From NCBI RefSeq assembly GCF_002001005.1, contig NZ_MUNX01000070.1:1-64000 (forward strand): DNA of 64,000 nt, read 5' to 3'. A program made the translations under genes and the position numbers. How positions within the stretch are numbered: the first letter of the stretch is position 1; each line of letters opens with the position of its first letter. The DNA comes from Flavobacterium sp. A45. Lineage in GTDB: Bacteria; Bacteroidota; Bacteroidia; Flavobacteriales; Flavobacteriaceae. This document shows, piece after piece, positions 8,191 through 49,403 of the stretch. Under the pieces are notes generated by a model. That model was not told the origin of the DNA. It did no database searches and worked only from the letters and a program-made list of their open reading frames with translations.

Positions 8191-8271
8191 GCAGGAATGA
8201 GTCCCGCTATCCGTTACAATCTTTGTAGGCTGAACCCCAGCCCACAAAGGATTTTCACTGCTATCGGGGCT
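8191..8271 (-). ncRNA. Putative structured repeat, short form (copy A1)
   Basis: Read on the minus strand, the element has AGCCCCGATAGCAGTG, AAAATCC, a 12-bp hairpin (CTTTGTGGGCTG / CAGCCTACAAAG, loop GGGTT, one G-U pair), then GATTGTAACGGATAGCGGGA. A second small hairpin (GCGGGA / TCCTGC) follows. The flanks match those of the copy at 31647-31713 while the hairpin sequence differs completely, as expected for a conserved RNA with a variable helix. It lies between the oxidoreductase and MFS genes, in their direction of transcription. Function unknown. Confidence 0.5.
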
Positions 8272-8333
8272 AAAAGGAGAGATTTAGCCTTTTTGCCATT
8301 ATTCAAAAAAAAAAGCATCAATTAATCTTAAAT

Positions 8334-12159: not shown

Positions 12160-12233
12160 TCCTCCTTAGCTCAGTTGGTTAGAGCATCTGACTGTTAATC
12201 AGAGGGTCCTTGGTTCGAGCCCAAGAGGGGGAG
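12160..12233 (+). tRNA. tRNA-Asn (GTT), copy 1
   Basis: The 74-nt cloverleaf has acceptor stem TCCTCCT / AGGGGGA with discriminator G, D arm GCTC/GAGC, anticodon stem TCTGA/TCAGA around loop CTGTTAA with anticodon GTT (12194-12196), and T stem CTTGG/CCAAG with TTCGAGC. CCA is not encoded, so it must be added after transcription. It is identical in sequence to the second copy 39 nt downstream. Confidence 0.97.
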
Positions 12234-12272: not shown

Positions 12273-12346
12273 TCCTCCTTAGCTCAGTTGGTTAGAGCAT
12301 CTGACTGTTAATCAGAGGGTCCTTGGTTCGAGCCCAAGAGGGGGAG
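12273..12346 (+). tRNA. tRNA-Asn (GTT), copy 2
   Basis: An identical 74-nt copy of the preceding tRNA-Asn, with the same stems and anticodon GTT and no encoded CCA. It is probably transcribed in the same unit from the promoter at 12105-12135 and ends at the terminator just downstream. Confidence 0.97.
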
Positions 12347-16478: not shown

Positions 16479-16500
16479 TCTAATTTAAAATCAATTAAAA

Positions 16501-16629
16501 TGGAAACAACTATGCAAAGTAGAGTTACAAACGGGATGTTTTTACTCAACAATTATTCGGATTCTCAAGCTCCTATCATTGAGTCAATTATAGAAACCAT
16601 TGTAGAACCTATTATTTTCAAATGCTAAA
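16501..16629 (+). pseudogene. 42-codon ORF copying the start of the alpha-E gene
   Basis: The first 20 codons (METTMQSRVTNGMFLLNNYS) match the start of the alpha-E protein encoded at 16918 (MKASMLSRVADGMFWLNRYM), with clear DNA similarity that also covers about 20 nt before the ATG. After that the reading frame diverges into an unrelated Ile/Glu-rich tail ending IIFKC. It is therefore either a truncated duplicate of the 5' end of the alpha-E gene or a short peptide gene born from it. A structured repeat lies between it and the intact gene. Translation is plausible because the initiation region is duplicated too. Confidence 0.55.
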
Positions 16630-16704: not shown

Positions 16705-16817
16705 GCGTGAGGGATAGAAGCTAGCTACCGAAGTAGCGCGGATAGCCCGACCGTGTTGACCAAAGGGGCTGTCTAAGAGATGCTAAAAGTAAGCCCCTTT
16801 GCTCAACAGGGTCACGC
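16705..16817 (+). ncRNA. Putative structured repeat, long form (copy B1)
   Basis: A 113-nt element closed by GCGTGA (16705-16710) and TCACGC (16812-16817). Inside are GGGATAG, a 5-bp hairpin GCTAC-CGAA-GTAGC (16724-16737) and GGATAGCCCGACC. A long hairpin follows (16754-16770 with 16792-16808, one C-C mismatch, 21-nt loop). The copy at 49218-49330 has the same length, the same first hairpin, and different but still complementary sequences in the other two helices. It sits between the 42-codon ORF and the alpha-E gene, in the direction of the operon. Function unknown. Confidence 0.65.
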
Positions 16818-16917
16818 CCACACGAGCTTTTGCGAACTGACGCAGTAAATAATTTTGAATGAATTCAGTATATTCTGTTGTCAATAAACGCTTTTTACAA
16901 TTTATAAATCGAATCAA

Positions 16918-17871
16918 ATGAAGGCAAGTATGCTAAGTCGAGTTGCAGACGGGATGTTTTGGCTCAACAGATATATGGAAAGAACCGATGGTATGTTGCT
17001 AACTCTTAACACTAGCTACATACTATCATTCGACAAAGAAACCGATGATTGTCAAGGCTATAAGCCTTTATTAAAATACTATACCGATTTGACCTACGAT
17101 CAAATAAACGAGGTTCAATATGACACCAACTTTGTACTGAAATACATTATTTGCGACAGTTTGAACCATAATTCGGTTAAAAATCTGGTGGTAAAAGCGC
17201 GTGAAAATGCCAGAGGTTCACAAGATAAAATAACCAAAGAACTTTGGGAACACATCAATTCGCTTTATCATTTCATGAACTCCCCAGATCTTCCCAAAAA
17301 ACTAGAAACCTCCGATGCCTTAAAAATTGTAAACAAACTCAATAAAGACCTACTGCTTTACAACGGAATCTTGCATGTAACCATGCCAAGGGGATTGAGT
17401 TGGAGTTTTTCGAATATCGGAAAACTAATAGAAAGATGCCTGCAAACTATTTCGATGACGCAAGCCTATTATGCACCAATCAATTATAATCTAGACGGGA
17501 ACGAAGACGTAATGTATTGGCGAAGATTACTGCTCTCCTTATCGGGTTACGAATTATACCTTAAGAGTTATAGCAATATAAAGCACAACAGGAAAGTGGT
17601 ACAACACGTTATTTTCAATCAGGACTTTGCACATTCTGTGATCTTTACGCTAGAATTACTCAATAAATATTTGGATTGTCTGGTAAAAGATAGTGAAATA
17701 AGTGAAGCTCGAAAGCTGCATAACCAATTTGGAAGATTAAAAAGTTATATAGAATTTACTGATTATCAGCACCTGACTGACAAACAATTGGAAGAAGTTC
17801 TGGAAACCACAAAAGCACAACTAACTCAGTTTTCTGTCGATTTCTCTAAATTATTTTTCTCCTACACCTAA
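16918..17871 (+). CDS. Alpha-E domain protein (DUF403)
   Basis: A 317-residue all-alpha cytoplasmic protein. The N-terminal LSRVADGMFWLNRYMERTDGML is the family signature (usually LSRVAERIYWLGRYLERAE-like), followed by helices to the end (RRLLLSLSGYELYLK near 200-215). The biochemical role is unknown; the family almost always accompanies a permuted ATP-grasp protein and a transglutaminase-like protein and is thought to work with them in forming or processing a peptide or amide product. The next gene begins 6 nt after its stop, so the two are co-transcribed. Its 5' end is partly duplicated at 16501. Confidence 0.9.
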   Translation: MKASMLSRVADGMFWLNRYMERTDGMLLTLNTSYILSFDKETDDCQGYKPLLKYYTDLTYDQINEVQYDTNFVLKYIICDSLNHNSVKNLVVKARENARGSQDKITKELWEHINSLYHFMNSPDLPKKLETSDALKIVNKLNKDLLLYNGILHVTMPRGLSWSFSNIGKLIERCLQTISMTQAYYAPINYNLDGNEDVMYWRRLLLSLSGYELYLKSYSNIKHNRKVVQHVIFNQDFAHSVIFTLELLNKYLDCLVKDSEISEARKLHNQFGRLKSYIEFTDYQHLTDKQLEEVLETTKAQLTQFSVDFSKLFFSYT

Positions 17872-31575: not shown

Positions 31576-31646
31576 GATGTTTATTTGTTTAGTCGGTTAA
31601 TCGCTAAATTGATTCACCAAAATGTTGTTGATTATCCTAAAGCCCT

Positions 31647-31713
31647 AGCCCTGATAGTAGTGGAAATCCCACGCTTTTGGGCGTGGATTGCAACGAATAG
31701 CAGGAATAGCTCC
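31647..31713 (+). ncRNA. Putative structured repeat, short form (copy A2)
   Basis: The plus strand reads GCCCTGATAGTAGTGGAAATCC in outline, then a perfect 6-bp hairpin (CCACGC 31669-31674, loop TTTTGG, GCGTGG 31681-31686), then GATTGCAACGAATAGCAGGA and a small AGGA/TCCT hairpin. The parts outside the hairpin match the copy at 8191-8271, while the helix differs. It lies between hmgA and hppD but on the strand opposite to them. Confidence 0.5.
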
Positions 31714-49217: not shown

Positions 49218-49330
49218 GCGAAAGGGATAGGAACTAGCTACCGAAGTAGCGTGGATAGCCCGACCGCATTATAGAAAGTGGGCAAATAAACGGCATCTAA
49301 AGTAGCCCACTTACTATAATGGGGTTTCGC
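49218..49330 (+). ncRNA. Putative structured repeat, long form (copy B2)
   Basis: A 113-nt element, equal in length to copy B1 at 16705-16817. The outer helix is GCGAAA / TTTCGC (49218-49223, 49325-49330). GGGATAG, hairpin GCTAC-CGAA-GTAGC and GGATAGCCCGACCG are shared with B1. The long hairpin uses different bases (CATTATAG, A-A mismatch, AAGTGGGC with GCCCACTT, CTATAATG; 49267-49283 with 49305-49321), again with a 21-nt loop. It stands in a gap between two minus-strand genes, on the opposite strand to both. Confidence 0.65.
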
Positions 49331-49403
49331 CCAAGTAATTTTAGAATTTAGATTACAGACAAGAGCGATAGCGCAATGTCACTAAGTTAGGATTTGTTTG
49401 TTT

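Follow-up and report, generated by a model that had tools for sequence, protein, structure and literature searches.

Two scattered, structured elements of Flavobacterium are B-type relatives of the Flavo-1 family

The window, a stretch of 64,000 nucleotides of a Flavobacterium sp. A45 contig, contains two elements of equal length that differ in sequence but share the same architecture. This raises two questions: what these elements are, and on which molecule the selection for their shape acts.

Structure and copies of the two elements

The initial annotation placed the elements, B1 and B2, at positions 16705-16817 and 49218-49330, and the helices it described were found in both when the sequence was read. 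The single mismatch that was said to interrupt the long helix of each is also present, at column 56 in B1 and column 58 in B2 (numbering of the alignment A2, see below). The predicted folds have a minimum free energy of -50.9 kcal/mol for B1 (z -5.54) and -42.5 kcal/mol for B2 (z -5.40), and in both cases none of 200 dinucleotide shuffles was as good. Since a conserved CC directly follows both 113-nt pieces, a length of 115 nt describes the element better (16705-16819 and 49218-49332, plus strand).

B1 starts with the 5' strand of the outer helix P1 (GCGTGA, 16705-16710), which pairs with 16812-16817, followed by the short helix P2 (GGG, 16711-16713), which pairs with CCC at 16746-16748. P2 leads into a 6x6 internal loop as found in Flavo-1, with AUWGNA on the 5' side (16714-16719) and GNAWAG opposite (16740-16745), and the loop carries an exchangeable 5' hairpin of the TACC..GTA type (16720-16739), in place of which hybrid copies have other hairpins. 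The exchangeable arm P3 (16751-16811) ends in a 21-nt apical loop (16771-16791); all of these parts lie on the plus strand.

A repeat tail common to other copies in the host and its relatives adjoins B1 on the same strand (16820-16856), and BLAST matches in the genomes G241, G178, G204 and G259 continue beyond the element up to about query base 1057. This tail of about 36 nt (ACACGAGCTTTTGCGAACTGACGCAGT...) recurs behind other B copies in the host and relatives and looks like an insertion between CCCA and AAATNATTTT. A small open frame 5' of B1 (16500-16628) looks like an incomplete second copy of the beginning of the Alpha-E gene at 16918 (ATGCAAAGTAGAGTTACAAACGGGATGTTTTTACTCAAC compared with ATGCTAAGTCGAGTTGCAGACGGGATGTTTTGGCTCAAC within 16918-17000). 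Two identical tRNA genes stand in tandem elsewhere in the window (12160-12233 and 12273-12346).

An Rfam scan, which the initial annotation had proposed, gave no match at gathering score for B1 or B2 (Rfam 15); under permissive settings B1 had five weak rows, all with E of at least 0.49 and far below gathering, and B2 had none. The genome search proposed alongside it revealed many further copies with compensatory pairs, the opposite of the outcome that would have refuted the initial reading. The word GGATAGCCCGACC occurs 11 times in the host genome and not once in a reversed control; a full B element lies at ten of these places and a hybrid (L007) at the remaining one. A covariance model, R1, was built from ten host copies, in which B1 (132.5 bits, E 2.0e-26 in the host genome) and B2 (121.5 bits, E 6.3e-24) are training rows, so that their scores are not independent and, as for all training copies, high by construction. 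R1 returned 58 host rows at E<=0.1, among them 31 full-length copies of 113-116 nt with at least 83.9 bits and three shorter copies with 53-67 bits; the weaker rows include antisense shadows of the same copies. Twelve of the weaker places were read, six of which proved to be the frame with another hairpin; the rest are decayed copies or a fragment.

Covariation and the nature of the acting strand

Ten host copies were aligned with MAFFT (A2; the hybrid L007 was left out), and 97.1% of the cells pair, with both-sided changes at 18 of the 35 pairs. None of 500 shuffles reached any of five measures, and sliding the partner by one to three columns brought pairing down to 37-46%. In a larger set of 82 copies (79 distinct), which was fitted to the model and thus leans towards the structure (A3), 31 of 35 pairs covary and 96.1% of the cells pair. 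A MAFFT alignment in which each genus code of the family sample is represented by a single short copy (A4; 25 copies, without L059, L061 and L068) yielded 14 covarying pairs out of 22, with 95.4% of the cells paired.

The changes are spread over the helices. P1 has both-sided changes at three of six pairs in A2 and five of six in A3, P2 is invariant in A2 and covaries at two of three pairs in A3, and covarying pairs rise from 3/7 to 6/7 in the 5' hairpin and from 12/19 to 18/19 in the arm. Two pairs of A3 are weak: the inner P1 pair is unpaired in 33 of 79 copies (A-G) and the third arm pair in 31 of 78. Selection on the folded strand is well supported by these data.

The paired changes had been read at the outset as evidence of selection on RNA structure. 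The part of this claim that concerns a folded strand under selection stands; RNA as the selected molecule, however, does not follow, as wobble pairs are nearly absent in the short copies. In the arm of A3, G-U occurs in 68 cells and A-C in 5, with 38 of the 68 G-U cells at two neighbouring pairs, and A2 as a whole contains 10 G-U and one A-C. By this excess of G-U over A-C, one strand, the described one, seems to function in single-stranded form. The short copies of A4, whose pairs belong mostly to the core helices, comprise 498 cells with 4 G-U, 2 A-C, 471 Watson-Crick and 21 other combinations, and the corresponding numbers for Flavo-1 of the host are 10, 3, 583 and 12. So little wobble is low for an RNA, and a folded single-stranded DNA, or correction between copies, could therefore also account for it; the acting molecule is RNA, or possibly single-stranded DNA.

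Relationship to Flavo-1

Flavo-1 (RF01705) had been named as the family to compare. As a classification by score this was rejected: B1 and B2 are absent from the Flavo-1 matches both at the gathering score (42 bits) and at E 10. The kinship itself, however, was borne out by the common internal loop and by hybrids that join the two families. The 6x6 loop AUWGNA/GNAWAG lies between two helices in B as well as in Flavo-1. Its U-A pair is found in 25 of 25 B copies of A4 and in 29 of 29 host Flavo-1 copies, and the adjoining pair varies in both, with 19 U-A, 3 A-U, one C-G and 2 other in B and 17 A-U, 5 U-A, 5 G-C and 2 C-G in Flavo-1. Both families also share the GGAWAGC motif and are interspersed in the same genome, where Flavo-1 accounts for 111 rows at E<=0.01, 101 of them above the cut-off. 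Compared with Flavo-1, B has another hairpin and, in addition, an outer helix and a second arm; the inner hairpin of Flavo-1 (GGAAAUCC..GAUUG or GGCAUCC..GAUAU) was not found in B1 or B2, which carry TACC..GTA instead.

The Flavo-1 hairpin does occur inside the B frame in hybrid copies such as L007, L360, L364 and L387, and the place of L007 also passes the Flavo-1 cut-off (55.4 bits). Copies that combine the frame with another hairpin make up the six host stretches mentioned above (L385, L386, L387, L389, L391 and L392) and are also found outside the host (L357-L361, L363 and L364); further hairpins within the frame start with GGAGCTC or GGTAGCCC. What stays constant is the outer helix, the internal loop, GACC...GG and the CCCWAA end. 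The arm ranges from a few bases in other genera, where the element is often only 61-92 nt long, to a nearly constant long form in Flavobacterium (112-116 nt in total). The hairpin and the arm behave as modules: their sequences differ between copies, and so do their lengths except in the long type of Flavobacterium, yet both remain paired. Because copies with the outer frame of B hold a Flavo-1 hairpin, B and Flavo-1 appear to form one modular superfamily, in which the frame is constant and both the 5' hairpin and the arm can be exchanged. Siblings that have the same loop and exchangeable hairpins or arms narrow the recognised part down to the frame and the loop.

Flavo-1 was listed in 2010, with no role given in the table concerned (PMC2864571), and none is assigned to it in the available portions of PMC9723704 or in its table entry in PMC9029176. 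The B element is not described in the available parts of PMC2864571, PMC9723704, PMC9029176, PMC12306157 and PMC6414381. Among the open-access papers listed for Flavo-1, for Flavobacterium repeats and for the core word, no report of it was found either, at the level of title and beginning of the abstract for the core-word papers, which include some on Candidatus Ornithobacterium hominis, a member of the Flavobacteriaceae. The B type is a scattered relative of the known, unexplained Flavo-1 family that matches no family of Rfam 15 at gathering score, and through it the function and spread of a common repeat of the Bacteroidota become directly testable.

Distribution, fixed sites and possible modes of spread

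Of 121 genus genomes, 78 have R1 matches (E<=1e-4), one to at least 30 each with up to 30 candidates scored per genome, and 61 of 149 genomes of a family sample have them at E<=0.01. Across the phylum, the model R2 matched 51 of 395 genomes (E<=0.001), of which 32 belong to the own family, 3 to the order, 13 to the class and 3 to the phylum; two far matches among those read (L357 and L358) have other hairpins in the frame. Among the matches listed, the exact pattern is present in named genomes of Flavobacterium, Aquimarina, Tenacibaculum, Arenibacter, Seonamhaeicola, Flaviramulus, Sediminicola, Mesonia, Acidiluteibacter and [Flexibacter] and in some bins; the Flavobacterium johnsoniae strain CI04 is one of the carriers.

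Annotated phage records had no B match, and the only match in plasmid records was weak and partial (42 nt, E 0.3, Roseburia) and was taken as chance. Five IMG/VR contigs match; the neighbour genes of four of them cluster together and look terminase-like by eye, and three of these four are identical in sequence around the element. On the four contigs (L333, L335, L336 and L337), a short B element lies 3' of the terminase-like frame on the other strand, 1 nt from its end in three contigs and 10 nt in one.

The behaviour of the element was followed at orthologous sites of related species. B1, B2 and two further sites are common to the host contig C125, G241 and G178; at one of the common sites the arm differs in G241, and two of them have a decayed 5' domain in one or two of the species. 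At a fifth site, the host has one of the two Flavo-1 copies of the window (8196-8275, minus strand, Rfam 77.5 bits), and the gap that is orthologous by synteny holds B in G241 and G178; the other Flavo-1 copy is located at 31643-31711 (plus strand, 58 bits). In G259, no B lies in the B1 gap, and one is present at a position where its three relatives are without it. At the place of one B copy of G178, G241 carries a decayed Flavo-1 in the opposite orientation, and G259 also has Flavo-1. Two gaps in all hold B in one species and Flavo-1 in another. Most testable B sites are common to the host (G000), G241 and G178, so movement must be slow. A crisp empty site was not found in five aligned cases, in which whole intergenic blocks differ.

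Three sites, named exbD/tonB, corA and sialate-esterase after genes read from the sequences, were compared in seven to ten aligned Flavobacterium loci each. The mean identity of the 5' domain is 0.94-0.96, and the lowest identity of the arm is 0.74, 0.61 and 0.58, respectively. The mean identity of the 5' flank (0.61, 0.68 and 0.60; shuffled 0.59, 0.58 and 0.58) is at the shuffled level in two sets and somewhat above it in one. Even where orthologous arms are as unlike as 0.58 and 0.61, at least 20 pairs are predicted in every arm; the arm can change wholesale and is still paired, while the 5' domain is about 95% identical at matching sites. The four loci of a thrA set are too close in sequence to tell. 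What is directly demonstrated is the large number of copies, the paired change, the occurrence of different modules at the same site, and the presence of the element in one species and its absence in another.

A further site precedes a haaO-like gene, which was found in 120 of 149 genomes of the family. Among the 30 best loci, 13 have an R2 match before haaO, in the same orientation and about 13 nt away, and 17 have none; by eye, five of the hairpins are of the TACC type, six of the Flavo-1 type and two of a third type. On a quick protein tree, in which the place of the mistranslated L424 is worthless, L420 and L421 had only one protein and a remnant seen by eye in L413 was scored as none, the types require 11 changes compared to a shuffled mean of 12.2, and 35 of 200 shuffles were as low. 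The hairpin types do not follow the protein tree, which favours the view that the element at this position before haaO has repeatedly been exchanged, lost or re-inserted. In L401 and L405, where the B type is absent upstream of haaO, other repeat-like sequence (TCATTCCGTACTTGATACGGAATC or alike) fills the gap. Fixed sites such as haaO, corA and exbD/tonB are natural swap experiments.

The main rival explanation of these fixed sites is a cis-acting mRNA element, intercistronic or 3', which would act on its neighbours through mRNA stability, processing or read-through, and whose place would be kept by selection. Such a role is a possibility to be taken seriously, albeit not the favoured one. It agrees with the recurrence of the element at the same place in several genera (before haaO, at a sucA-like/E2 site, and at the exbD/tonB, corA and sialate-esterase sites), with its far better conservation compared to the 5' flank and with the excess of G-U over A-C in the arm. 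The sucA-like site was seen in three loci, between what we take, from the sequences, to be a sucA-like gene and the gene of its E2 partner. On the other hand, more than half of the haaO loci have no R2 match, decayed copies remain in place, and the recurrent neighbour families have no visible common function.

Orientation also argues against a cis-acting role. The 30 host copies examined occur in both orientations relative to their neighbours. Among 149 copies from two mixed collections, in which some loci are duplicate sequences (e.g., L079 and L240), the downstream gene lies on the opposite strand in 104 cases, on the same strand in 41 and was not found in 4. De-replicated by gene family, the bias shrinks to 44 opposite and 26 same (p 0.04), which is too weak for a sharp orientation rule, and the upstream gene shows none (36 and 37); tandem neighbours of the host Flavo-1 show no bias either (10 and 10). 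These copies come from 158 pattern matches, 149 of which have a partner end within 110 nt; the end was defined as the exact 4-base partner and the other nine were left out, eight of which have an end by eye and one of which runs off its locus. Some Flavobacterium copies were assigned too early an end (77-79 nt), and single distances there may be wrong. No coding version exists among the 158 matches. A role as an intrinsic terminator was rejected, as terminator-like signals within 100 nt were present in 11, 0, 4 and 2 of 140 copies for four placements. The T-rich 3' flank of the Flavobacterium copies is, by eye, mostly absent in other genera.

The elements could also be independent genes of trans-acting small RNAs. 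Rfam types Flavo-1 as sRNA, and a pyrimidine directly precedes the element in all 68 copies from the genus and in 137 of 140 copies of the wider set, so that the constant 5' start could be a start site. An own promoter is not clearly enriched, however: the Bacteroidota motif TAnnTTTG, as given in the available part of PMC9723704, occurs in the last 30 nt before 7 of 140 elements, with 3.45 expected from mononucleotide shuffles. According to the same portion of that paper, Flavo-1 matches lie sense and antisense to transcripts, and many lie outside them. Small RNA genes are an improbable explanation.

The reading we favour, and consider somewhat probable, is that B1 and B2 belong to a modular, non-coding repeat of the Flavo-1 superfamily, whose interspersed, REP-like copies are multiplied or homogenised via their folded frame. 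One strand would fold into the outer helix, a short helix with the conserved purine-rich 6x6 loop ending in a hairpin, and the second arm. Machinery that recognises this folded frame, as is thought for REP sequences, may drive multiplication or homogenisation by copying, conversion or template switching, and the copies would come to lie in intergenic gaps and at the ends of genes, where the host tolerates or uses them. The conservation of the 5' domain over near-shuffled flanks, however, also fits a function kept in place, and the repeat reading and a cis-acting role can both be true at different sites.

A classical DDE-type MITE is a very unlikely form of such a repeat. The many copies and the short inverted ends (GCGTGA/TCACGC) resemble one; however, the ends form a covarying helix and are not the same in all copies, and no target-site duplication was found in 140 copies, whose flank agreement is within the shuffled range. 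No transposase gene framed by B ends was present in the loci read.

More tentatively, the repeat may be a protein-less modular mobile element of the Bacteroidota, whose folded frame would be recognised by host machinery that recopies it and swaps hairpin cassettes at fixed sites; what is passed on would then be the structure rather than the sequence. Integron attC sites are also folded single strands with a variable terminal arm, and B is like them in these features but differs in being scattered and three-branched.

REP sequences are interspersed extragenic folded repeats, and it was considered whether B is one that a RAYT (Y1) transposase mobilises. Hairpins dispersed in the gaps between genes would fit, Y1_Tnp matches are present in 86 of 121 genus genomes, and Flavo-1 lies within the flank of two of the 20 Y1 loci scanned for it. 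However, PF01797 is absent from the host with its 31 full-length copies and from G178 with at least 30 matches, none of 30 Y1 loci has an R1 match even at E 5, and B differs from REP/RAYT systems in being three-branched, 61-116 nt long and without a link to Y1 genes. A RAYT link for B was therefore rejected as highly improbable, and no mobilising enzyme was identified with the Y1 transposase family as the one tested. The Y1 flanks display other, shorter repeats by eye: many Y1 genes of the genus (L190-L213) are flanked by short hairpin repeats of their own, which often end in GGTAG.
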